Shown here: piece by piece, positions 7,960 to 29,227 of the stretch | Position numbering within the stretch: the stretch's first letter is position 1 | Layout: the number at the start of each line of letters is the position of its first letter | The notes under the pieces: generated by a model | What the model was told of the DNA's origin: nothing | Seen by the model: only the letters and a program-made list of their open reading frames with translations | The model's database searches: none | Assembly (NCBI RefSeq): GCF_900445235.1 | Contig: NZ_UFSM01000001.1 | Span: 4,231,501 to 4,295,500 of the forward strand | From: Aminobacter aminovorans | GTDB taxonomy: Bacteria > Pseudomonadota > Alphaproteobacteria > Rhizobiales > Rhizobiaceae | DNA: 64,000 nucleotides | Direction: 5' to 3' | Position numbers and translations under genes: made by a program

Positions 7960-8447
7960 TTGCGCTCCTCCGGCGGCCAGGTCTCGGTGTCGTGGTCGGG
8001 GTGCTGGAACGAGACGATGTCGTCGACGAAGTCGGCCGCCTCGGGGTCGTCCTCGGTCGAATAGCCCTTGAGCTCGTGGACATGGTCGACATAGGGCAGC
8101 TTGCCCTCGAGGCCCCATTGCACCGTCGGCGCGATTTCCGCCGGTTCGTCGAAGGCGGCGATCGCCAGCGCCGCGCCGTCTGGCGCCTCGAAGCTCAGCG
8201 GCGTGCCGCAGTCGCCGCAGAAGCCGCGCAAGCCGAAATTCGACGAGCGGAACTTCTTCGGCTCGCCGCGCGTCCAGGTCAGTTTCGCCTGCCGCACCGA
8301 GACCAGCGGGGCATAGAAATTGCCGAATGCCTTCTGGCACATGCGGCAATGGCACACCGACGCATCGCCGAGCGCGCCCTCGACATGAAAGCGCACCGCA
8401 CCGCACTGGCAGCCGCCGCTGTAGACCGGCTTGTTGTCCAGGCTCAT
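7956..8447 (-). CDS. GFA-family zinc protein 3
   Basis: A 163-residue paralogue, first of the three to be translated. Zinc motifs GGCQCGAVRF, CHCRMCQKAFGNFY and GFCGDCGTP are intact. It lies 12 bases after the VOC gene and overlaps gfa2 by ATGA. Keeping three complete, diverged copies argues for different thiol-adduct substrates rather than simple redundancy; that is inference. Confidence 0.85.
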   Translation of the reverse strand: MSLDNKPVYSGGCQCGAVRFHVEGALGDASVCHCRMCQKAFGNFYAPLVSVRQAKLTWTRGEPKKFRSSNFGLRGFCGDCGTPLSFEAPDGAALAIAAFDEPAEIAPTVQWGLEGKLPYVDHVHELKGYSTEDDPEAADFVDDIVSFQHPDHDTETWPPEERK

Positions 8448-8459
8448 GGCAGCGTTTCC

Positions 8460-8840
8460 TTATGCCGGCACATGGCACACCGCCTCGATGTTGTTGCCAT
8501 CCGGATCGAAGACGAAGGCGGCATAATAGTCGGGGTGATAATGCGGCCGTGGCCCCGGCCCGCCATTGTCCTTGCCACCGGCGGCGATCGCTGCGGCGTA
8601 AAACGCGTCGACCTCGGCGCGGCTGCGCGCGGTGAACGCATAATGCCGCCCCGGCCCGGCTTCCGCCTCGTGCAGCCAGAACACCGGCCGCTCGCGGCCA
8701 TAGCCGCCAACCTTGACCCCGCCGGTATGTTCGCCCGGCACCATCATCAGAAGCGACGCACCCAGCGGCGCGAACGCCTTGTCGTAGAACGCCTGCGCCT
8801 TGTCGAAATCGGTGACCGAAATTCCAGTATGGTCGATCAT
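8460..8840 (-). CDS. VOC-superfamily (glyoxalase/bleomycin-resistance fold) protein
   Basis: A 126-residue single VOC module starting MIDHTGISVTDFDKAQAFYDKA and ending YYAAFVFDPDGNNIEAVCH, with metal-ligand candidates His4 and the late Glu. VOC enzymes handle methylglyoxal-glutathione adducts, fosfomycin and many other small electrophiles or ring substrates. Being in one operon with three GFA proteins fits a glutathione-adduct or aldehyde detoxification theme. Its ATG overlaps the DUF559 stop (8837-8840). Confidence 0.85.
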   Translation of the reverse strand: MIDHTGISVTDFDKAQAFYDKAFAPLGASLLMMVPGEHTGGVKVGGYGRERPVFWLHEAEAGPGRHYAFTARSRAEVDAFYAAAIAAGGKDNGGPGPRPHYHPDYYAAFVFDPDGNNIEAVCHVPA

Positions 8841-9226
8841 TGCACGAACTCCTCCTTCATGCGGACGGCCGTCCCGGCCGAGATCACGATGTTCTGGCAG
8901 ACGTTATCCATATCGCGAACGACGTCGTCGTTCCAGAAGCGGAGAATGGTCCAGCCGAGACCTTCCAGCTTGGCGGTGCGAACTGCATCCGCTTCCGCAA
9001 TCTCGGCCGAGCCGTGTTGCGAACCATCGACCTCGACAATCAACTTATGTGTTGGGCAGGCAAAATCGACGATGTAGCCGGCGATTGGCAATTGCCTCCG
9101 AAAACCCAGTCCCATCAGTCGATGCGCCCTAAGCTCATTCCAGAGCTTAAGCTCGGCATCCGTCATCTGTTTGCGCATCTTGCGCGCGTTCCGGCGATTG
9201 GCCGGGGGAACCGGGTAATGGGTCAC
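8837..9226 (-). CDS. DUF559 endonuclease-like protein (Vsr/PD-(D/E)XK-like fold)
   Basis: A 129-residue protein with N-terminal RKMRKQMTDAELKLWNELRAH and the nuclease-like core YIVDFACPTHKLIVEVDGSQH, where the Asp and the Glu-x-Asp resemble the metal site of Vsr-type nucleases. This is typical of the widespread, uncharacterised DUF559 family. It is the first gene of the overlapping operon. A direct link to the detoxification genes behind it is not evident. Confidence 0.85.
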   Translation of the reverse strand: MTHYPVPPANRRNARKMRKQMTDAELKLWNELRAHRLMGLGFRRQLPIAGYIVDFACPTHKLIVEVDGSQHGSAEIAEADAVRTAKLEGLGWTILRFWNDDVVRDMDNVCQNIVISAGTAVRMKEEFVQ

Positions 9227-9234
9227 CGCCGACC

Positions 9235-9414
9235 ACCCCCCTCTGCCCTGCCGGGCATCTCCCCCTCAAGGGGGGAGATCAGGCCGTCAGCGACCTGTCG
9301 CCCAACCACAGACGCCGCTGCAACACGCTCCAAAACCTGGCAGGACAATGAGACACGTCCAAGCTGCTGATCTCCCCCCTTGAGGGGGAGATGCCCGGCA
9401 GGGCAGAGGGGGGC
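9235..9414. repeat. long inverted-repeat intergenic element, family 2 copy b
   Basis: The arms at about 9235-9279 and 9369-9414 are near-perfect inverted copies with the words CCCCCCTCTGCCCTGCCGGG and CATCTCCCCCTCAAGGGG, homologous to the element at 5881-6035. The ~90-bp interior is unlike that of copy a. It lies just upstream of the DUF559-pip operon and downstream of cysS, so it could end cysS transcripts. Confidence 0.7.
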
Positions 9415-9446
9415 ATGCGGCCCCACCCTATCCTGCCCCGCCATCA

Positions 9447-10883
9447 TCACCGCTTCACTTCCCACGTCGTCACGCGTTCACCTGTGACAGGGTCCTTGCC
9501 GTCCTTCAGCTGAACGCCCTGGGCCAGAAGCTCGTCGCGGATGCGATCGGCCTCGGCCCAGTTCTTGGCGTTGATCAGCTCAAGCCGGCGCGCGATTGTT
9601 GCGGCGACCGCCACCTCGTCGACCTCTGCCGCCTCGAGCCCGAAGCCGAGGAACAGCAGCGCTGCCTTGAGTTCGGCCGCGGCCTCGACGTTGCTGCCGG
9701 CTTCGGCGGCGAGCTGCGACAGGCCCTGGAAGACGCTCGACGTGGCGAGGTCGTCGCTGAGTGCCGCAATCAGTGCCGCCGGCACCTCGGCTTCGGCCTC
9801 GCCGGCGCTGTCGGCCGCACGCTTCCATTTGCGCAATGTGTTCTCGGCTTCCTCCAGCTTGCGCAGCGAAAAGTCGATCGGCTCGCGATAATGCGTCATC
9901 AGCATGGCCAGCCGCAGCACCTCGCCCGGCCATTTGCGGCCGCCGAAATTCTCCGTCGCGAGCAGTTCGTGGATCGAATAGAAATTGCCCAGGCTCTTGG
10001 ACATCTTCTGGCCCTCGACCTGCAGGAAGCCGTTGTGCATCCAGTAGTTGGCCATCACATCGGTGCCATGGGCGCATCGCGACTGGGCGATCTCGTTCTC
10101 GTGGTGCGGGAAGATCAGGTCGAGCCCGCCGCCATGGATGTCGAAGACCTCGCCGAGATAGGCGGCCGACATCGCCGAGCACTCGATGTGCCAGCCCGGC
10201 CTGCCGCGGCCCCAGGGGCTGTCCCAGCCCGGCTCCTCCGGCGACGAAGACTTCCACAGGACGAAGTCGCCGGGGTTCTTCTTGTGCGCCTCGACCTCGA
10301 CGCGGGCGCCGGCCTGCTGCTCGTCGAGATTGCGCTTCGAGAGCTGGCCATAGTCTTCCATCGAGCCGGTGTCGAACAGCACTTCGCCTTGCGCTTCATA
10401 GGCATGGCCGCGTTGGATCAGGCGTTGAATCAAGGAAACCATGTCGGTCTTGCCGTCCGGCCGCGCGAGCACGAACTCGGTTGCCCTGGGCTCGACGGTC
10501 GGCTCGAGGCAGCCCAGCGCCTTGACGTCGGCATGGAACTGGTTGGCGGTCTTTTCCGTCACCCGCCGGATCGCCTCGTTGAGCGGCAGGGCGGGGAAAT
10601 CGCGCAAGGCGCGGGCGTTGATCTTGTCGTCGACGTCGGTGATGTTGCGCACATAGGTGACGGCATTCTCGCCATAGACATGGCGCAACAGGCGGAACAG
10701 CACGTCGAAGACGATCACCGGGCGCGCATTGCCGATATGGGCGAAGTCGTAGACCGTCGGGCCGCAGACATACATCCGCACGTTTTGCGGATCGATCGGC
10801 ACGAAGTCCTCCTTCGTGCGTGTCAGCGTGTTGGTAAGGCGAAGGCCCCGAAACGCACCGGACTTCAGCTTTGAATCAGACAT
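9447..10883 (-). CDS. cysS: cysteinyl-tRNA synthetase
   Basis: A 478-residue class I synthetase. Cys40 and HIGN (residues 49-52) occur in [19 protein letters not shown], the zinc and HIGH-type motifs. KMSKSLG lies near residue 280. It charges tRNA-Cys with cysteine in the cytoplasm. The start at 10883 is set by a GGGGAG ribosome-binding site five bases upstream; a longer reading to 10940 has no such site. Confidence 0.95.
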
Positions 10884-21040: not shown

Positions 21041-21313
21041 TTAGAGATGGGGCGCCAGCCCCGTGGCAGTGTCCTTGCTCGATGCCACCGGTACGATCTC
21101 GAAACCGACGAGGTCGGCCCATTCGACGACCCAGCGCTGCAGCAGCGTGACGTTTTCGGCCTCCACCAGCATGAAGCAGCGGCTCATGTCGGCGGCGATC
21201 CAGCTGTGGTGAACGATGAAACCCTCTGGCGCCAGCCGTCCCTTGTCGCGAAAGCGACGGTAGATCGCCTTCGGGTCGCGCCCGCGAAAATCCTCGATGA
21301 CAAAGAAAAGCAT
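21041..21313 (-). CDS. DUF3303-like small protein
   Basis: A 90-residue ferredoxin-like-fold protein: MLFFVIEDFRGRDPKAIYRRF, then GRLAPEGFIVHHSW, then RCFMLVEAE and LLQRWVVEWADLVGFEIVPV. This is the DUF3303 pattern; the function is unknown. It lies downstream of the SDR gene by 63 bases and may be read with it. Confidence 0.75.
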   Translation of the reverse strand: MLFFVIEDFRGRDPKAIYRRFRDKGRLAPEGFIVHHSWIAADMSRCFMLVEAENVTLLQRWVVEWADLVGFEIVPVASSKDTATGLAPHL

Positions 21314-21376
21314 CTTTTGTCCGTGCCCCCAACTCTCCATGGGAGAAGATCAGGGGGCACGGAACTTGGCAAGCGG

Positions 21377-22168
21377 TCAGTCGACCAGCGTGCCGCAGCT
21401 CAGATTGGCGATTGCCCCGGTCATCGCGCCGGCACGGTCGGATGCGGCGAAGGCGGCGAAATCGCCGATCTCGGCCAGCGTCGGAAAGCGCCTGAGCAAC
21501 GGCCCGTTGGCGGCGCGGGCGGCCAGCATGTCGTCGACCGACATGCCTGAGCGCTGTGCAAAACCCTCGAAGGCCGCGCGCACATGCGAAACATCAATCG
21601 CTTCCGGAATGGCGTCGGGCCGGAGGCAGATCACCCTGATGCCCTGCGCCCCGAGCTCGCCGGCGAGGATGCGCGAAAACGCCTCCACCGCCGCACTTGC
21701 CACGCCGTTGCCGAGAAAGCCTGCGCCCGACAGCCGCGCCCCCGGTGTCGACAAGGTCAGGATCACGCCCTTGCCCCTGAAGTGCCGCGCCACCGCTTTC
21801 GCGGTCAGGAAGTTGGTCCTGGTATAGGCTGCGACAGGCAGCTCGAAATCGGCAAACGACAGATCCGCCAGCGGCGTGCCCTGGACATGGGCGACGCCAA
21901 TGGCATTGAGCGCGATGTCGATGCCGCCGGCCTTGTCAGCCACCATGTCGGCGTGGCGCTCGACCGCGTCCTCGTCCAGCGCATCGACGACGGCGATGTC
22001 GACGTCTCCGCCCAGCGCCCGGATGTCGCCGGCAACCGCCTCCATCTTCGCCCGCGTGCGCCCGGCCAGGAACACACGCGCCCCGTCGCGGGCGAAGGCC
22101 TTGGCCGCGGCACCGCCAATCGCGCCGCCGCCGCCATAGACAACCGCAATGCGGTTTACGAGCGACAT
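21377..22168 (-). CDS. SDR-fold protein lacking the usual Tyr-Lys catalytic pair
   Basis: A 263-residue Rossmann protein with the nucleotide-binding VYGGGGAIGGAAAKAFA and the structural motif NAIGVAH in place of NNAG. After the expected Ser (LTLSTPG), the place of Y-x-x-x-K is occupied by FLGNGVAS, so neither catalytic Tyr nor Lys is present. It may bind a nucleotide without redox catalysis, or use a different chemistry. It is the last gene of the ArsR-SRPBCC-SDR operon, one base after the SRPBCC stop. Confidence 0.8.
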   Translation of the reverse strand: MSLVNRIAVVYGGGGAIGGAAAKAFARDGARVFLAGRTRAKMEAVAGDIRALGGDVDIAVVDALDEDAVERHADMVADKAGGIDIALNAIGVAHVQGTPLADLSFADFELPVAAYTRTNFLTAKAVARHFRGKGVILTLSTPGARLSGAGFLGNGVASAAVEAFSRILAGELGAQGIRVICLRPDAIPEAIDVSHVRAAFEGFAQRSGMSVDDMLAARAANGPLLRRFPTLAEIGDFAAFAASDRAGAMTGAIANLSCGTLVD

Positions 22169-22169
22169 G

Positions 22170-22733
22170 TCACGCTCCCGCCTGCGAGCTGCCGATACGC
22201 TCGGCATATTCGCCGACCAGCCTTGTGTGGGTGCGCCAGAAGCCGTCGGGTTCGCGGCCCTCGAGCCTGGCCGACAAGATGCCGAGATGGGTGTGCCAGC
22301 CGGCGGCGACATTGAGCATCGCACCGTGGTCGGTGAGCCGGCGATGGGTGACCGTCAGCAAAACCTTGTCGCTGCGCGGCTCGAGCTCGAAGCGCACCTC
22401 GGAGCTTTCGCCGGCTTCCGCAGCACCGCCCCAGCTATAGGCCAACAGATGCGGCGGCTCGCAGGCGATGATCTCGCCCGGCACCCGGTGTTCGGCAAAG
22501 GCGGCGAGATGGGCGGGCGGCGGATCGTCGTTGCGGGTCAGTTCGGAGTTGCGGAACAGGTTCTCGACCTGCCCGCCGGCTCGCAATTCCATCGGGCCGC
22601 CGGCAAGCCAGGTGCTGCGCTTTTCGGAGTCGGTGAGATAGCTCCAGATGCGCTCGATCGGGCCCGGCAGCAGGCGCTCGATGCGCACGGTTCCGGGCTC
22701 GGTGACGACGCCGTAAGAAGTATGGATATTCAT
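22170..22733 (-). CDS. SRPBCC / AHSA1-type ligand-binding protein
   Basis: A 187-residue START-like fold protein: TVRIERLLPGPIERIWSYLTDSEKRSTWLAGG and later VRFELEPRSDKVLLTVTHRRL, typical of the AHSA1 subgroup. These bind hydrophobic ligands or act as stress co-factors. ArsR genes are very often followed by an AHSA1 gene, as here. The start overlaps the ArsR stop by ATGA. Confidence 0.85.
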   Translation of the reverse strand: MNIHTSYGVVTEPGTVRIERLLPGPIERIWSYLTDSEKRSTWLAGGPMELRAGGQVENLFRNSELTRNDDPPPAHLAAFAEHRVPGEIIACEPPHLLAYSWGGAAEAGESSEVRFELEPRSDKVLLTVTHRRLTDHGAMLNVAAGWHTHLGILSARLEGREPDGFWRTHTRLVGEYAERIGSSQAGA

Positions 22734-23116
22734 GACTTTTTCCCTTTCTTCTTTGCTTCAGTGGTTTCGGATGGTTTGGCCGCCGCGGCCTGGTCCTCGG
22801 CGACGAGCAGGGCTTCGAGGACGTCGAGCTGCTGGTTCCAGAATTTCTCGTAGTGCCGCATCCACTCGACGCCGGCATGCATCGGCAGGGCGTCCAGGCT
22901 GCAGAGATGGGTGCGCCCCTGCACGCTGCGGCGCACCAGCCCGGCCTTCTCCAGCACCTTGATGTGCTTGGAGGCGGCAGCCAGGGTCATGTCGAAAGGT
23001 GCGGCGAGGTCGCTGACGTTGCGCGGCCCCTTGGCCAGCCCCTGGAGCATCGCCCGGCGGGTCGGATCGGACAGCGCGTGGAAGATCGCGTCAAGATGTT
23101 CGGAATGCTCAACCAT
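22730..23116 (-). CDS. ArsR-family regulator, probably leaderless
   Basis: A 128-residue winged-helix protein (MVEHSEHLDAIFHALSDPTRRAMLQGLAKGP, then AAASKHIKVLEKAGLV) with a Lys/Ala-rich tail. It lacks metal-binding cysteines, as do most ArsR proteins paired with SRPBCC genes, so the signal is unlikely to be a metal. The ATG at 23116 lies seven bases after a -10 box, so the mRNA probably starts at the ATG itself. An upstream GTG/ATG reading to 23152 would place the start inside the promoter and is rejected. Confidence 0.85.
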   Translation of the reverse strand: MVEHSEHLDAIFHALSDPTRRAMLQGLAKGPRNVSDLAAPFDMTLAAASKHIKVLEKAGLVRRSVQGRTHLCSLDALPMHAGVEWMRHYEKFWNQQLDVLEALLVAEDQAAAAKPSETTEAKKKGKKS

Positions 23117-23166
23117 AAGGTATAATATATGGCCGCAAATCCGAATAGTCAACCGTTCGGTATAAT
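23109..23166 (-). promoter_or_regulatory. promoter and paired operators of the ArsR-SRPBCC-SDR operon
   Basis: Reading on the minus strand, TTGACT (23152-23147), a 17-base spacer and TATATT (23129-23124) form a near-ideal sigma-70 promoter. An 18-base direct repeat, TCAACC-N4-GGTATAAT, lies at 23109-23126 and 23149-23166, exactly 40 bp apart. One copy covers the -10 box and ATG, the other the -35 box. The inner ACC-N4-GGT is a dyad. This is a textbook arrangement for repression by the encoded ArsR. Confidence 0.7.
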
Positions 23167-23177
23167 GTTTTTCGAGG

Positions 23178-24638
23178 CTACTTGCCGTTGCGCTCCAGCC
23201 GGTCGAGGAACCATTGGGTCAGGCGCACCCAGACCTCGTCCTTTTCGCCGGAATCCTCGACGCCGTGGTCGAGGTTGGGATTGTCGTTGACCTCGATGAC
23301 GAAGACGCCCTCTTTGGTCTCCTTGAGGTCGACACCGTAGAGCCCGTCGCCGATGCAGCGCGCGGCACGCACGGCGGTGTCGATGACATGCGCCGGCGCA
23401 TGCTTCAGCGTAAACGTCTTGATGCCGCCCTCGTCGGGCTTGCCGGCGCGGTCGTGGTTGATGATCTGCCAGTGCTTCTTGGCCATCAGATAATGGATGG
23501 CAAACAGCGGTTGGCCGCCGAGCACGCCGACACGCCAGTCATATTGCGTCGGCATGAACTTCTGCGCGATCAACAGGTCCGAATCCTCAAGCCAGGCCGT
23601 CGCCAGCGCCTTCAGTTCGTCGAAGTCAGACGCCTTCTTGACGCCGCGCGAGAACGACGAGTCAGGGATTTTCAGCACCAGCGGAAAGCCCAGCGTGTCG
23701 GCGGCAGGCTGCAGGTCGGAGACGCCGGCGATCATGACAGTCGGCGGTACCGGCACGTTGTTGTAGGTCATCAGCTCGTTGAGATAGACCTTGTTGGTGC
23801 AGCGGATCATCGACAGCGGGTCGTCGATGACAGGCATGCCCTCCTGCTGCGCCCGCCGGGCGAAGCGGTAGGTGTGGTTGGAAATCGAGGTCGTCTCGCG
23901 GATCAGGAGCGCATCGTAATTGGCAAGCTTGGCCAGGTCCTTCTTGGTGATCGGCTCGACCTCGACGCCCATCTTCTCGGCGATACGGGCCCAGTAGCGC
24001 AGCGACGAGATCTCCGACGGCGGCAGTTGCTCGTTGGGGTCGATCAGCGTGGCGAAGGTGTAGCGCGACGGCGTGCGCGCCTTGGTGTCGCGCCACTCCC
24101 TGCTGGTATAGGTCTCGAGCGCCGCAACGAAGCGCTTCTTGTCGGCATCGTCGAGCCGGCCGAGTGCGGCAAAGCCGATCTTGTGGATCGAGGCCCATTC
24201 GCCGTCGTTGATCGCCACCTCCAGCGCCGGGGCGCGGAACCAGTCGAACAGCAGCCTGGTGAAGCGGTCCCAGGCCTTGGACGGACCGACGCCAAAAAAG
24301 ATCGTCACCTTGGCCGGAAACGACCCGCCGAGATCCTTGCGGCACTTGTTCAGCGCCAGCTCCAGTTCCGGCAGCGCGTTTTCGTAGAGCTTGCGTTCCG
24401 ACAGATCGATCATCGTCTCGACCGTCGGGATCACCTTGTGGCCGCGCGAGCCGGCCAGCAGCGAGGCGTAATAGCCCCGGCTCTGATAGGCATAGCGGTT
24501 CGACAGATTGATGATCTTCGGCCGCTGGCCGCGAAACAGCGCCGGGTGGGCGAGATAGTCGCGGTTGGTGATGATCTTGTGCGGCGTCGCCGCCTGGTCG
24601 AGATCGCTTTGCCGGCCGGTGAGAATGACCCAAGTCAT
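23178..24638 (-). CDS. RimK-like ATP-grasp ligase with N-terminal RLAN-type domain
   Basis: A 486-residue protein. The N-terminal ~180 residues (MTWVILTGRQSDLDQAATP..., then IINLSNRYAYQSRGYYASLL) match the RimK-like-ATP-grasp-N-terminal domain. Residues ~270-480 form an ATP-grasp fold, with the Mg/ATP residues in FVIEVNDNPNLDHG near residue 450. RimK relatives join amino acids, often glutamate, through an acyl-phosphate. It overlaps the GNAT-C39 gene by ATGA, so the two are translated together. The substrate is unknown; peptide tailing or a small peptide-like metabolite is inferred. Confidence 0.85.
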   Translation of the reverse strand: MTWVILTGRQSDLDQAATPHKIITNRDYLAHPALFRGQRPKIINLSNRYAYQSRGYYASLLAGSRGHKVIPTVETMIDLSERKLYENALPELELALNKCRKDLGGSFPAKVTIFFGVGPSKAWDRFTRLLFDWFRAPALEVAINDGEWASIHKIGFAALGRLDDADKKRFVAALETYTSREWRDTKARTPSRYTFATLIDPNEQLPPSEISSLRYWARIAEKMGVEVEPITKKDLAKLANYDALLIRETTSISNHTYRFARRAQQEGMPVIDDPLSMIRCTNKVYLNELMTYNNVPVPPTVMIAGVSDLQPAADTLGFPLVLKIPDSSFSRGVKKASDFDELKALATAWLEDSDLLIAQKFMPTQYDWRVGVLGGQPLFAIHYLMAKKHWQIINHDRAGKPDEGGIKTFTLKHAPAHVIDTAVRAARCIGDGLYGVDLKETKEGVFVIEVNDNPNLDHGVEDSGEKDEVWVRLTQWFLDRLERNGK

Positions 24639-25741
24639 CGTTTCGAAGGCTTTCCGAGAGTGATTGCGGCGCGCAGGCCGTCGCGGCCGAACTGCGCCAT
24701 GCGCATGAAGATGTCGTAGGGAACGGGAATGTTGGCGGCGTCCGACGCCGTCTCGCGCTGCTCGTCCTCGATCCAGGGGTCATGGATCAGGATGTGGCCG
24801 CCATCGTCGCCGATGGCCAGCACCCAGTGCGGCACTTTCTTGCCGAACATCAGGAAGCCCGAGATCAGCACCAGAACCAGCTTGCCCTCGGCCAGCCTGG
24901 CCCTGATGTCGTCGAGCGCGAAGGGACGGTAGGTCACGGGGATGGCGTATTTTTCGGCACGGGCGCGAAAATCGGCCTGGGCCAGCTCCATCACCCGGCG
25001 CTTCTCGGCGCTGCGGACGGACTGCAGGAACAAGGCGCCCTCGGCCGAGACGAAGATCTCGGCGCCAAGCCCGGCCTCATGTCCCGCCACCGCCAGCCCG
25101 AACGGCTCGCAGCCGCCCGGCCCCGACATCATGAAGATCGTCGTCGCCTCGCGCCACAGCCGGACCTCCATCACCGGGTCGGGGACGAATGTGCGGTCGA
25201 AATTGGCCATCGCCATCATCAGGCAGCACGGCCCGCAGGTGAAATCGCAGGTCTGGGCGTAGAACGGCACCTTGGTTGCCACAGGCACGTCGCCGCGCAG
25301 CGTCTTTTCGTAACGAAGGGCCGCCATGCCGTCTTCATAATAGTCGGGCTCGTGGCCGATCCTGCGGTAGCCGTTCTTTTCATAGAGGCTGATGGCGCGG
25401 GCATTGTCTGCGCGCACCTCGAGCCTCAGCAGCATGCGGCCGTGCTCGTAGGCGACGTCCTCGGCGGCGTCGAGCAGCAGGCGGCCGATGCCCTTGCCGC
25501 CGAAGGCGGGCGCAATGGCAAAGGAATAGAGCCGGGCGACGCCGCTGCCCTTGCGAAACAGCACCATGGCGTATCCGGCAATGCGGCCGCCGACCTCCGA
25601 TACCAGCGCCTCGGCGGTTTCGTGATCGATCAGCTGGCGGAAGGAGCGGCGCGAAATCCTGTCGCCCGGAAAGACGGCATTCTCGATGGCGACAAGCGCA
25701 TCGACATCTTCAGCGCGGGCCGTACGAATGTCGGCAGCCAT
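24635..25741 (-). CDS. GNAT acetyltransferase fused to a C39-like cysteine peptidase
   Basis: A 368-residue two-domain protein. Residues 4-148 are a GNAT domain with the acetyl-CoA loop FGGKGIGRLL (80-89) and VRADNARAISLYEKNGY. Residues 155-368 are a C39-like peptidase: Gln163 and Cys169 in AQTCDFTCGPCC, His305 in VPHWVLAIG and Asp321 in HILIHDP form a complete catalytic set. C39 peptidases usually cut double-glycine leaders of peptides, though here no ABC transporter is attached. The start at 25741 is chosen at the GNAT domain start. It is first in the operon with the ATP-grasp ligase. Confidence 0.85.
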   Translation of the reverse strand: MAADIRTARAEDVDALVAIENAVFPGDRISRRSFRQLIDHETAEALVSEVGGRIAGYAMVLFRKGSGVARLYSFAIAPAFGGKGIGRLLLDAAEDVAYEHGRMLLRLEVRADNARAISLYEKNGYRRIGHEPDYYEDGMAALRYEKTLRGDVPVATKVPFYAQTCDFTCGPCCLMMAMANFDRTFVPDPVMEVRLWREATTIFMMSGPGGCEPFGLAVAGHEAGLGAEIFVSAEGALFLQSVRSAEKRRVMELAQADFRARAEKYAIPVTYRPFALDDIRARLAEGKLVLVLISGFLMFGKKVPHWVLAIGDDGGHILIHDPWIEDEQRETASDAANIPVPYDIFMRMAQFGRDGLRAAITLGKPSKR

Positions 25742-25949
25742 CTGGTCCTGAGAACCTCGTCTGGGCAGGAGAAGCCCTGAAGGAATGTCCAGCGAAGCAC
25801 CGGCGCGCGCCCCGCATTTGCCCTGCGCAGTCACGCCTCGATTCGGGCCTTATTGTGACATGGCCGGGGGCTGCCCGGGCATATGAATCTCATGGGGAGA
25901 ATGGCGAAATCAGGTGGTGCCGGTACCCCGTGTTTCCCGACCTCGCCAA

Positions 25950-26149
25950 CTGGTGATCGCCGTGTCGTGGTGGATGGATGAAGCCGTTGCCATCTCTCCC
26001 GGCTTGAACCTGATGGCGTGTGGCCACTCGACTGTCACGGCATGGCATCTGGTGATCGCCATGTTGCGCATGTGGATGATCTGCAAAGCCGTTGCCGTCT
26101 CTCCCGGCTTCTCCTGATGGCATGTGGCCGTTCGACCTTCACGGCATGG
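25950..26149. repeat. imperfect ~99-bp tandem duplication
   Basis: CTGGTGATCGCC...AAGCCGTTGCC(A/G)TCTCTCCCGGCTT...TGATGGC(G/A)TGTGGCC...CACGGCATGG appears at 25950-26045 and again at 26049-26149, with base changes and small indels. The copies have diverged, so the duplication is not very recent. Confidence 0.75.
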
Positions 26150-26356
26150 ATCCTAGGGTCTACGCAGTTCGCTGCGCTCCCTGCTTCGCCCTAGGATGAC
26201 GAAGGCGTAGACGTTGTCGGCCAATCTCCGACGCTTGGCTCAAGGCTTCCGCCAACAGGAAACGTTGGCGATTGGCGGAGCGCTCCCGCACCTTCGTCAT
26301 CCTAGGGCGGAGCAGGAGCGCAGCTCCGTCGCGGAGACCCTAGGATCCATGCCGTG
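26140..26356. repeat. 217-bp inverted-repeat intergenic element, family 4
   Basis: The left end CACGGCATGGATCCTAGGGT reappears inverted at the right end. The match extends inward about 65 bp through GCGCTCC and CGCCCTAGGATGACGAAGG with a few changes. The core contains a second dyad around AACGTTGGCGATTGGCGG. No transposase is inside, so it could be a MITE-like or rhizobial palindromic element. Confidence 0.75.
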
Positions 26357-26443
26357 ACCTCCCAACGACCGCAAGCCGTCAGGATCGAGCCACTACGATC
26401 AAGAGAAACACGCACTCCGAAAGCACGACCAACCGCGCCACCC

Positions 26444-27232
26444 TCAAGTCCGCCCCGCCCCGGCGATCAGCTGCTTGTAGGCGTTCCTGGCGACCGTTCC
26501 CATCTGCTCGGGCGGCAGCGTGCCGACGATGGCGCAGCCATAACCTTCGTCCTGCCAGTAGACCGCCTCGGGGCCGCCGCTCGCCAGGGTGAAGGTGCCC
26601 TTGGAGCGCTCTGACCCTTCGGCCACGACATAGACCGAGATGCGGTTGCCGTCGGCATCGGCATAAAGCATCAGCGCTGCGGTTGCGCCATCCGCCGGCA
26701 CCAGGCGCCCGCCCAGAAGCGTGAAGCCGTCATTGCTGAGATCGGGCGCCACCAGCCTGAGGCCGGTGCGCTTGGAGAGCCAACCGGTCAGATAGGCCTG
26801 GTCGCTGCCGTCGACCTCGACCGGCCGGTTCTTGTCGGCGGCAAAGGTCTGGTGCGCGGCAATCGCCAGCTGGGCCATGCGGTCGTCGGAATCGCCGCTT
26901 GTGCCGAGGCCGCTCATGCCGGCAAGATATCCGCCGAGCCCGCCTGCGATCAGCAAGGCCGCTGCAGCCGCCATGCGCCACCACGGCGTCGCCTGCCTGT
27001 GCCTCAGTCCCTCGCCATTGACCGCTGTTACCAGCCGCGCCGGCACCGGCTCCTCGAGCACGCCGGCAAACAAATTGCGCAAGGCCGCATTGTCGGCGGC
27101 GTAACGCAGGCTCCTTGCCTTCATGTCGGGATTGGCTTCCAGCCACATCTGGTAGGCGGCGCGCTCGTCCTCGGGCAGCTCGCCATCGAGAGCCAGATGA
27201 ATGTCACGGTCGGTGAAGCTGCGCGCGCTCAT
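26444..27232 (-). CDS. membrane-anchored anti-sigma factor
   Basis: A 262-residue protein. The N-terminal ~90 residues (FTDRDIHLALDGELPEDERAAYQMWL...) form a cytosolic anti-sigma-like helical domain without the zinc H-x3-C-x2-C motif. One transmembrane helix follows (WWRMAAAAALLIAGGLGGYLAG, ~residues 84-105), then a periplasmic domain of ~155 residues. It overlaps the sigma gene by ATGA. It most likely holds the ECF sigma factor inactive until an envelope signal arrives. Confidence 0.88.
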   Translation of the reverse strand: MSARSFTDRDIHLALDGELPEDERAAYQMWLEANPDMKARSLRYAADNAALRNLFAGVLEEPVPARLVTAVNGEGLRHRQATPWWRMAAAAALLIAGGLGGYLAGMSGLGTSGDSDDRMAQLAIAAHQTFAADKNRPVEVDGSDQAYLTGWLSKRTGLRLVAPDLSNDGFTLLGGRLVPADGATAALMLYADADGNRISVYVVAEGSERSKGTFTLASGGPEAVYWQDEGYGCAIVGTLPPEQMGTVARNAYKQLIAGAGRT

Positions 27233-27747
27233 TTCTCGACGATCCTTATCGCCCGCCGGCGTGCCTGATCGTCAAGCAGCCCGCGCAGTTCCTCGCGGCC
27301 ACGCGCAATGCGCGACATCAGCGTGCCGGCCGGCACGCCGAGCATGGTTGCGGCCTCGGCGTAGGAAAAACCTTCGATCGCGACCATCACCAGTGCCGCG
27401 CGCCGGTCGGGGCTGATCTGCTGCAACGCGTCGACGATCTCGCGCGAGGCGACGCTCTCGGCCTGGATCGCCGGGGTTGCCAGCGCCTCGCTCGCCTCGA
27501 GCGGCAGGATCGCCGCTTCGCCGCGGCGGCTCACCTTGCGCATCTGGTCGATGAAGAGATGGTGCATGATCGTAAACAGCCACCTCCTGGGGCTTTCTCC
27601 TGACCGCCAGTTGTCCAAGCGCGAAAGCGCGCGCTCGAGACTGTCCTGGACGAGATCGTCGGCGGAATCGCGGTCGCGCAGCAGCGCCCGCGCATAGCGG
27701 CGCAGCCGGGGGATTTCCTGAAGTATCGCTGCCTTCTTTTCGTCCAT
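27229..27747 (-). CDS. ECF-type RNA polymerase sigma factor
   Basis: A 172-residue protein with sigma region 2 (YARALLRDRDSADDLVQDSL, then WLFTIMHHLFIDQMRK) and region 4 (LQQISPDRRAALVMVAIEGF, then GVPAGTLMSRIARGREELR). The ATG at 27747 is chosen from the family start; the longer open frame upstream runs through the promoter. It is co-translated with its anti-sigma factor. The regulon is not known, but an ECF-like promoter lies upstream of the gene itself. Confidence 0.92.
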   Translation of the reverse strand: MDEKKAAILQEIPRLRRYARALLRDRDSADDLVQDSLERALSRLDNWRSGESPRRWLFTIMHHLFIDQMRKVSRRGEAAILPLEASEALATPAIQAESVASREIVDALQQISPDRRAALVMVAIEGFSYAEAATMLGVPAGTLMSRIARGREELRGLLDDQARRRAIRIVEK

Positions 27748-27862
27748 GACCGCGGATCGCAAGTCGTCCTCTTCCACGCCGATTGAACGCGCCCAATTGA
27801 ACGCGGCTTGCCGGCGCTGCGCAAGCGCCTGGCCATGGCTTTCGCCACCCCAGCGCACAACT

Positions 27863-27888
27863 AACGATTGGCAGCATCGTTCTATTCC
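27863..27888 (-). promoter_or_regulatory. candidate ECF-type promoter of the sigma/anti-sigma operon
   Basis: On the minus strand GGAAT (27888-27884) is followed after 17 bases by CGTT (27866-27863), resembling the GGAAY-N16/17-CGTT pattern of alphaproteobacterial ECF promoters. It lies 116 bases before the sigma ATG and suggests autoregulation. Confidence 0.4.
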
Positions 27889-27920
27889 CGACACATCAGA
27901 AATCTTGAACCATTTCCCTA

Positions 27921-27938
27921 GTTCAATTGATTTTGAAC
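27921..27938. promoter_or_regulatory. inverted repeat upstream of the MFS gene
   Basis: GTTCAA and TTGAAC are separated by six bases (TTGATT). A further TTGAAC lies at 27905-27910. The dyad is about 50 bases before the MFS ATG and could be an operator for a GntR-, LysR- or TetR-like regulator not encoded nearby. Confidence 0.4.
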
Positions 27939-27985
27939 ATCGCTGCGGATCGGGTAAAAACATTCCACCCACGGGAGATCTGACG

Positions 27986-29227
27986 ATGACGGCAGCGGCG
28001 GTGAACACCAGGTCGGGGTCGAAAATACCTTGGCTCATCATCATTTGTGGCTGCCTGATCGCAGCGTTGACCTTCGGCCCACGCTCGGCAATGGGTTTCT
28101 TCCAGCTGCCGATGCTCGCCGAAAAGGGCTGGGACCGCACCACCTTCGGCCTCGCCATGGCAATCCAGAACCTGTGCTGGGGCCTCGGCCAGCCGATCTT
28201 CGGCGCCATCGCCGACCGTTTCGGCAGCTGGCGCGTGCTGACGCTGGGTGCGGTGCTCTATTCGCTCGGCCTCTATCTGATGGCCCATGCCGATAGCGCC
28301 GGCATGCTGCATCTCGGTGGCGGCGTGCTCGTCGGCCTTGGCGTCGCCGCCGGCTCGTTCAGCATCGTGCTCGCGGCCTTTGCTCGCAACACCAATCCGC
28401 AGAACCGCTCGATCGTGTTCGGCATCGGCACCGCCGCCGGTTCCGCCGGTATGTTCGTCTTCGCACCGATCAGCCAGGGCCTGATCGACGCCTATGGCTG
28501 GTCCGACACGCTGGTCTACATGTCGATCGCCATGCTGGTGATCCCGGTGCTGGCGATCCCGCTTGTCGGCAATTCGCGCTCGGGCAAGGTCTCGCAGGCC
28601 GAGATCGAGCAGACGCTCAGCCAGGCCCTGTCGGAGGCCTTCGCCCACAAGAGCTATCTGCTGCTGGTCTCGGGCTTCTTCGTCTGCGGCTTCCAGGTCG
28701 CCTTCATCACCGCCCATTTCCCGGCCTATATCAGGGACATCGGCATCGATGCGCGTTATGCCGTGATCGCGCTGGCGCTGATCGGCTTCTTCAACGTCAT
28801 CGGCTCGCTCGCCTCCGGCGTCATCGGCCAGAAATACTCCAAGCCGCATTTCCTCGCCTGGATCTATCTCGCCCGCTCGGCGCTGGTGACCGCCTTCCTG
28901 CTGCTGCCGCAGACGCCGACATCAGTCGTCGTCTTCGCCATCATCATGGGCCTGTTGTGGTTGTCGACGGTGCCGCCGACCAACGGCCTTGTCGCCATCA
29001 TGTTCGGCACCCGCCATCTCGGCATGCTCGGCGGCATCGTCTTCTTCTCGCACCAGATCGGCTCGTTCCTCGGCGTCTGGCTCGGCGGCTATCTCTACGA
29101 CCATTTCGGGTCCTACAACCCGGTCTGGTGGCTCGGTGTGATCCTTGGCCTCTTTGCCGCCGCCGTGCACTGGCCGATCAAGGAACGCCCGGTCGCCCGG
29201 CCGGCGGTGCTGGCCCCGGCGGAGTGA
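27986..29227 (+). CDS. MFS transporter, oxalate/formate-antiporter-like group
   Basis: A 413-residue protein with twelve predicted helices. It contains FGPRSAMGFFQLPMLAEKGW and IQNLCWGLGQPIFGAIADRFG, the loop 2-3 signature of MFS carriers, with RFGSWRV close by. The middle charged loop is residues ~195-220. It resembles monocarboxylate/oxalate-formate type carriers rather than drug pumps. The start at 27986 has GGGAGA eight bases upstream. It is divergent from the ECF sigma operon. Confidence 0.85.
   Translation: MTAAAVNTRSGSKIPWLIIICGCLIAALTFGPRSAMGFFQLPMLAEKGWDRTTFGLAMAIQNLCWGLGQPIFGAIADRFGSWRVLTLGAVLYSLGLYLMAHADSAGMLHLGGGVLVGLGVAAGSFSIVLAAFARNTNPQNRSIVFGIGTAAGSAGMFVFAPISQGLIDAYGWSDTLVYMSIAMLVIPVLAIPLVGNSRSGKVSQAEIEQTLSQALSEAFAHKSYLLLVSGFFVCGFQVAFITAHFPAYIRDIGIDARYAVIALALIGFFNVIGSLASGVIGQKYSKPHFLAWIYLARSALVTAFLLLPQTPTSVVVFAIIMGLLWLSTVPPTNGLVAIMFGTRHLGMLGGIVFFSHQIGSFLGVWLGGYLYDHFGSYNPVWWLGVILGLFAAAVHWPIKERPVARPAVLAPAE

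Follow-up and report, generated by a model that had tools for sequence, protein, structure and literature searches.

The constant genomic partner of the RLAN-RimK-type ATP-grasp ligases is an acetyltransferase of the GNAT family, and the C39-like peptidase found in this system is optional. This was established for a gene pair located on the minus strand of a 64,000-nucleotide stretch of the Aminobacter aminovorans genome (contig NZ_UFSM01000001.1, positions 4,231,501 to 4,295,500; hereafter, the window), and for its relatives in other genomes. The pair consists of a ligase gene, in which an RLAN domain precedes the ATP-grasp domain, and a gene encoding a GNAT domain fused to DUF3335, a C39-like peptidase domain of the papain fold. 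The conclusion is based mainly on locus counts and, to a lesser extent, on phylogenetic trees.

The first set comprised 40 ligase loci, selected to be diverse and to cover genomes lacking DUF3335 as well, and is therefore a non-random sample. A homologue of the window's GNAT adjoined the ligase in 39 of them: the fusion with C39 was present in 25 loci and a solo GNAT in 13, and L119 had both kinds. In L117, one of the 25 fusion loci, a further GNAT was fused to the ligase itself in a single protein of 659 amino acids (aa). A scan of the GTDB species set revealed at least 589 confirmed ligase stretches, and the best 80 matches, mostly alphaproteobacterial, were taken as loci. The GNAT partner was directly upstream and on the same strand in 79 of these 80. 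Fifty of the 79 partners had the C39 domain (counting L142, which is cut by the contig end so that only the end of the GNAT is readable), and 29 were solo GNATs. Among class-sample genomes with RLAN and without DUF3335, a solo GNAT was present in 8 of 8 further loci; these cover 8 of 10 such genomes, since G076 is L115 of the first set and G135 was left out. Overall, 126 of 129 ligase loci had an adjacent GNAT, a total in which two genes are counted in both sets (L111/L183 and L129/L164) and which leaves out the ligase of G017 and the other plasmid matches (7 Azospirillum, Tistrella, Legionella, and Aeromonas). In the Azospirillum and Tistrella plasmid records, a GNAT-C39 match was located beside the ligase match.

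Three loci weigh against a constant GNAT. In L095, the exception of the first set, no GNAT was found beside the ligase, and a GNAT-C39 gene was located on another contig of the same genome. L215, whose contig extends 3.3 kb upstream from the ligase, showed no GNAT. The ligase of a Pseudomonas aeruginosa plasmid (L132) had no GNAT annotated within 8 kb. On this plasmid (NZ_CP133752.1, pZYPA1927), the RLAN ligase lies between an SDR gene, itself next to pagP, and an aminotransferase gene; genes for glutamate/aspartate uptake, asparaginase, and gamma-glutamyltransferase are nearby.

The linkage between RLAN and DUF3335 is far above chance. In the phylum sample (349 genomes), RLAN was found in 62 genomes and DUF3335 in 52; both were present in 51, RLAN only in 11, DUF3335 only in 1, and neither in 286. 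The two matches lay within 5 kb of each other on one contig in 49 of the 51 genomes with both, the exceptions being G066 and G252. Counted by genus, the corresponding numbers were 28 with both, 8 with RLAN only, 1 with DUF3335 only, and 148 with neither (Fisher p ~7e-25, uncorrected for kinship). The relatives sample (61 genomes) contained 23 genomes with RLAN and 19 with DUF3335, and RLAN was present in all 19 of the latter. The class sample (190 genomes) contained 23 with RLAN, 17 with DUF3335, and 13 with both; the two were close together in 12 of these 13, while G566 had lone DUF3335 genes on other contigs only. The three samples overlap in some genomes. DUF3335 occurred without RLAN in four genomes (G068, G449, G551, and G553), where its frames of 222–253 aa are too short for an additional GNAT. 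Conversely, RLAN was found without DUF3335 in the same assembly in 4 of 23 (relatives), 11 of 62 (phylum), and 10 of 23 (class) RLAN genomes; some of the last 10 are shared with the phylum sample, and since some assemblies are in many contigs, a few of these absences may be gaps. A first-pass annotation, made from the letters of the window, had proposed co-occurrence as a check on the pair, and the two genes are indeed co-inherited. Its further expectation that neither gene should often occur alone was correct for DUF3335, whose genomes nearly always carried RLAN, but not for RLAN, which was often found without DUF3335 and with a solo GNAT instead. The peptidase is regarded as optional because the C39 domain is missing from more than a third of the partners in the GTDB species set, because DUF3335 is missing from those 11 RLAN genomes of the phylum sample, and because the partner type changes on the trees.

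The ligase tree, with 120 sequences, shows 19 switches between C39 and solo partners, at least 14 of which are forced by well-supported branches. In the tree of GNAT domains (121 sequences: 77 fused and 44 solo), 2 changes of type suffice. Both trees were built by a quick method, and stars mark 24 of the 116 inner branches in that of the GNATs. Since many changes are seen on the ligase tree and only 2 on the GNAT tree, the GNATs appear to form two ancient lineages, one fused and one solo, with the ligases having switched between them. The switching could have proceeded either by in-place replacement or by retention of one of two ancestral copies. Both kinds of GNAT were present in L119, in L117, and in the genomes G066 and G122. 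The sister ligases L148 (solo partner) and L150 (fused partner) sit on short branches with a support of 99, which suggests recent partner switching. Among the points that count against the overall reading, 8 of the 44 solo sequences nest within the fused group of the GNAT tree, where many forks are weak; these 8 may have lost the C39 domain on their own. The ligases L197 and L208, from metagenome-assembled genomes labelled Acidobacteriota, group tightly with those of Hyphomonadaceae, for which contamination of the assemblies seems more likely than a recent transfer.

The features of the pair in the window are as follows.

23178..24638, minus strand: RLAN-RimK-type ATP-grasp ligase gene, 486 aa
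24126..24563, minus strand: RLAN domain, residues 26-171, Pfam 128 bits
23190..24062, minus strand: pre-ATP-grasp and ATP-grasp domains, about residues 193-483; closest folds LysX/ArgX and RimK
24635..24638, minus strand: ATGA overlap of the ligase ATG and the GNAT-C39 TGA, read from the sequence
24635..25741, minus strand: GNAT-DUF3335 (C39-like) fusion gene, 368 aa, ATG start at 25741, stop at 24635
25298..25741, minus strand: GNAT domain of RimI/Ard1 type, about residues 1-148
24656..25270, minus strand: DUF3335, C39-like papain-fold peptidase domain, residues 158-362, Pfam 259 bits
25235..25237, minus strand: codon of Cys169, predicted catalytic cysteine, checked in the sequence; 79 of 79 sequences
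24827..24829, minus strand: codon of His305, predicted catalytic histidine, checked in the sequence; 79 of 79 sequences

With the ATG at 25741 as start, the product of the fusion gene equals its closest homologues in length and architecture; an alternative longer frame with a GTG start reaches 25834. The stop of this gene at 24635 and the start of the ligase at 24638 mean that the two codons share the ATGA. An overlap of 4 bases (ATGA, GTGA, or TTGA) was found in 40 of the 79 pairs compared in the GTDB species set loci. The ligase of the window is 98% identical to one of Aminobacter sp. BA135. The first-pass annotation had already noted the ATGA overlap and had given the pair its correct place; it had also listed Gln163, Cys169, His305, and Asp321 with correct residue numbers, the GNAT loop GGKGIG, which is present, and the ATP-grasp motif EVNDNPN, which is intact.

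The predicted catalytic residues were strongly conserved. Gln163, Cys169, and His305 were identical in all 79 C39-bearing sequences, the window's copy included, and the position of Asp321 was occupied by D in 76 and by E in 3 of them. A loss of the catalytic Cys/His in most homologues, which the first-pass annotation had considered incompatible with its proposal, was thus not seen. In the alignment of GNAT domains, Glu108 was found in 121 of 121 sequences and Tyr120 in 114 of 121; these two occupy the positions of the catalytic pair of RimI. Arg369, Glu449, and Asn451, the ATP-grasp catalytic residues of the ligase, were identical in all 120 ligases. The alignment had 121 rows, since one gene (L210) is in two pieces; in this locus, 7992-9721 of a metagenome-assembled contig of Rhodospirillum sp. 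UBA1311, the pieces match query residues 3-381 and 382-482. According to PMC10092738, Arg64, Arg189, and Asn262 of RimK touch poly-glutamate, and the ligase residues aligned with these three were likewise identical in all 120 sequences.

Structure comparison placed the ligase fold closest to LysX/ArgX/RimK and the GNAT fold closest to Ard1/RimI, the latter in agreement with the profile search. Matches to the ATP-grasp part took up the whole of the ligase comparisons, which therefore did not reach the RLAN fold; by profile, the RLAN domain had no convincing relative in the PDB (best E 0.88). Similarly, the comparison of the GNAT-DUF3335 protein was filled by the GNAT part rather than by C39. 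For the C39 domain, the profile search gave a weak match to the double-glycine protease domain 6mpz (E 0.0005) in two short stretches.

The RLAN domain scored 127.6 bits with PF14401 (curated cut-off 25) and is N-terminal to the ATP-grasp domain, which places the ligase in the RLAN family. The ATP-grasp domain matched the RimK-type PF08443 (36.6 bits, cut-off 21), and the GNAT domain matched PF00583 (63 bits). The peptidase domain belongs to DUF3335 by its Pfam match (PF11814, 259 bits, cut-off 25) together with the papain-fold Gln-Cys-His. It does not qualify as Peptidase C39 proper: the GNAT-DUF3335 protein stayed below the cut-off of the exporter-bound family PF03412 (15.3 bits, cut-off 22), and Pfam found no ABC domain in it. 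The ligase was below the RimK models TIGR00768 (86.4 bits, cut-off 143.4) and NF007764 (28.4 bits, cut-off 331) and below the LysX model TIGR02144 (89.7 bits, cut-off 275.6). The GNAT was just under the RimI model TIGR01575 (81.7 bits, cut-off 86.4), its match to the RimI fold being strong nonetheless. Two other assignments were considered and rejected: neither protein matched any PADLOC family at E 0.001, as would be expected for an anti-phage defence system, and the ligase had no match in phage records that would point to phage cargo.

We propose, with roughly even confidence, that the pair is an intracellular module for peptide ligation and N-acetyl capping, to which a peptidase for turnover optionally belongs. 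The RLAN-ATP-grasp enzyme would activate a carboxylate as an acyl phosphate, most likely the C-terminal one of an amino acid or short peptide, and couple it with the amino group of a second amino acid in the manner of RimK and LysX. The RimI-type GNAT would then acetylate the free alpha-amine of the ligated peptide; RimI and Ard1 acetylate the N-termini of proteins and peptides. Where present, the C39-like domain would provide turnover as a cysteine peptidase, either by hydrolysing the peptide or by exposing an N-terminus again. We infer all of these reactions, their order, and the product, a small N-acetylated peptide kept in the cell. The first-pass annotation had suggested that the pair builds, trims, and acetylates a peptide. 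Ligation and acetylation remain the natural reading, while trimming as a required step is unsupported, since the 29 solo partners lack C39.

The proposal is consistent with the occurrence of DUF3335 elsewhere. The window's genome contains a second DUF3335 gene (locus L026, G000:C1:3667131-3667742), about 0.59 Mb from the pair. It ends an oligopeptide ABC-uptake operon, behind an aspartoacylase/DoeB-type deacylase gene whose product scored 119.5 bits in Pfam (cut-off 25) and 252.4 bits with the DoeB model, under its cut-off of 402.7. The same arrangement of uptake operon, deacylase, and DUF3335 was found in G001, G007, and G256 (L030, L031, and L224), that is, in four genomes in all. On Sinorhizobium meliloti pSINME02 and a Microvirga plasmid, oligopeptide ABC-uptake genes are also followed by DUF3335, and a deacylase match was not found at these two loci. 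The substrates of some DUF3335 enzymes therefore seem to be intracellular peptides, and the location of these enzymes in peptide-uptake operons fits turnover better than leader removal; together with the deacylase in four genomes, it suits enzymes acting on small intracellular peptides. The DUF3335 gene of L026 (6559-7758) also encodes an unrecognised N-terminal stretch of about 140 aa, with no Pfam match above cut-off, which, judged by eye, is perhaps a worn-out GNAT.

Several observations count against the capping module. The DUF3335 proteins of the uptake operons share no more than 32-38% identity with the domain in the window, and their function may therefore not carry over; five lone DUF3335 loci (L126, L221, L222, L223, and L225) had none of the tested genes alongside. 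Small peptides are not the only conceivable substrates of a RimI-like GNAT, which could also modify proteins. Moreover, all C39-bearing homologues keep the peptidase residues, which implies that the cut matters where the domain is present and that its role may exceed turnover.

A search of the neighbourhoods in 50 diverse loci (ligases up to 72% identical to that of the window; open reading frames of at least 30 aa within about 6 kb; E up to 1e-4) revealed no conserved third gene or small open reading frame, although a precursor shorter than 30 aa, very divergent, or unlinked would escape it. The largest cluster spanned 11 of the 50 loci and was a chain of minus-strand frames, several of them antisense over the 3' end of the ligase; the two of its frames that were tested had no Pfam match. 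The second cluster (10 loci) resembles ABC-transporter ATPases by appearance and occurs in varying places on both sides. Smaller clusters mostly reflect local synteny, for example, rplU-rpmA-obgE-proB-like genes (named by eye) upstream in Hyphomonas-type loci. In the window, no ABC transporter was found among the seven neighbouring genes from 21041 to 29227, the only ones searched; one of the seven encodes an MFS permease. The statement of the first-pass annotation that no ABC exporter or precursor adjoins the pair is thus supported for these seven genes and, as regards a conserved precursor, for the 50 loci, the rest of the window being outside the search.

The strongest alternative to the capping module is protein tagging, which we consider about half as probable: a RimK-like ligase would extend a protein, the RimI-like GNAT would acetylate it, and DUF3335 would serve as the eraser. 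The fold of the ligase and its conserved poly-glutamate-contacting residues match RimK, and PMC12239564 describes the protease RimB as a partner that trims the RimK product. However, the eraser would have to be optional, as DUF3335 was not found in many loci and genomes, and no acceptor gene was linked to the pair in the 50 diverse loci.

It is improbable that the pair makes an N-acetylated dipeptide as a compatible solute or storage compound, with the amino acid acetylated first and ligated second. The model for such a route is N-acetylglutaminylglutamine amide (NAGGN), which is made by a GNAT-ATP-grasp protein. The two systems have the GNAT and ATP-grasp activities in common, with one natural fusion of the two in L117, and the ECF sigma factor gene found upstream in Mesorhizobium-type genomes (24 of 80 loci) is compatible with stress control. 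On the other hand, neither protein reaches the NAGGN synthetase model TIGR03103 (25.9 bits for the GNAT, cut-off 569; the ligase was unlisted), and the GNAT fold is closest to N-terminal acetyltransferases. A peptidase-like gene by the ligase in L108 resembled the NAGGN M42 peptidase by eye; it reached no NCBIfam family, and this link was rejected.

Slightly less probable still is a graspetide-like ribosomal peptide with a precursor encoded elsewhere, in which the ligase cross-links, C39 removes the leader, and GNAT acetylates the new N-terminus: these three activities equal those of microviridin-type pathways, which use cross-linking, leader removal, and N-terminal acetylation, but C39 is optional, DUF3335 is under the PF03412 cut-off, and no open reading frame of the size searched is conserved in the neighbourhoods. 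In Table 1 of PMC8939145, the C39 peptidase/ABC transporter is the first family given for graspetide loci. More generally, leader cleavage as the core role of the system is unlikely, given that so many partners lack C39 and no conserved precursor was found.

The surroundings of the pair in the window differ in part from those in related genomes. Upstream, an ECF-type sigma factor gene (27229-28209) overlaps a gene without Pfam family (26444-27232), which, by its position, is likely to encode an anti-sigma factor; the sigma factor gene has relatives upstream in 24 of the 80 loci and the anti-sigma-like gene in 18, in both cases in loci of Mesorhizobium type. About 0.45 kb of repeat DNA (25947-26391), with direct repeats of 25 and 37 nt and inverted arms of 54 and 57 nt, separates the anti-sigma-like gene from the pair, while in Mesorhizobium loci the distance is only about 0.2 kb. 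Downstream, a DUF3303 gene closely follows the ligase in 12 of 80 loci. In the window, it is separated from the ligase by ArsR, AHSA1, and SDR genes (21041-23152), which look like an insertion in the window's lineage since they have no relatives in the 80 loci.

The pair belongs to a known kind of system predicted by comparative genomics. Iyer, Abhiman, Burroughs, and Aravind reportedly described RLAN-RimK and GNAT-papain-like proteins in 2009 (Mol Biosyst 5:1636). The families are the same as here, namely Pfam RLAN and GNAT-fused DUF3335; set beside that description, the points that our analysis probably adds are that GNAT is constant, that C39 is optional, and that two partner lineages were repeatedly exchanged. 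The system resembles RimK-RimB, the ribosomal protein S6 glutamate ligase and its retropepsin-like protease, in combining an ATP-grasp ligase of the same fold, with equivalents of Arg64, Arg189, and Asn262, with a protease partner. It differs in the extra RLAN domain and in the protease, which is an optional, GNAT-fused cysteine enzyme of the papain fold. In contrast to RimI/Ard1, the GNAT is fused to a C39 domain and linked to a ligase. Unlike in the LysX/ArgX carrier-protein systems, no conserved small open reading frame was found across the loci, a carrier not having been searched for by name. NAGGN synthesis is similar in that a GNAT and an ATP-grasp enzyme work together, and different in its synthetase model, which is not reached here.

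Both families are present in Pfam and in NCBI protein names, and a 2023 review (PMC10318531) contains them with the 2009 work as its source. Among the literature matches listed, neither RLAN nor DUF3335 proteins turned up as the subject of an experimental study. PMC12153261 and PMC9756463 name a RimK family protein in passing, and the Azotobacter RimK of PMC10651043 could be of either the RLAN or the plain RimK type. As far as checked, the new points here are the exchange of partners and the optional nature of the peptidase.

For this ligase family, as large as the GTDB species set shows it to be, no product was found in print. A constant GNAT with an optional peptidase narrows the search for it, as an N-acetylated peptide or a peptide tag is to be expected, and lineages with and without the C39 domain offer a natural comparison for the role of the peptidase. 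It is possible, although we hold this only tentatively, that short peptides capped by an N-acetyl group form a new class of compounds, made by the pair in hundreds of bacterial genomes, and that the acetyltransferase working with the ligase has repeatedly been swapped, a plain form for a peptidase-bearing one or the reverse. If so, some lineages would keep the capped peptide permanently, whereas others could cut and recycle it.

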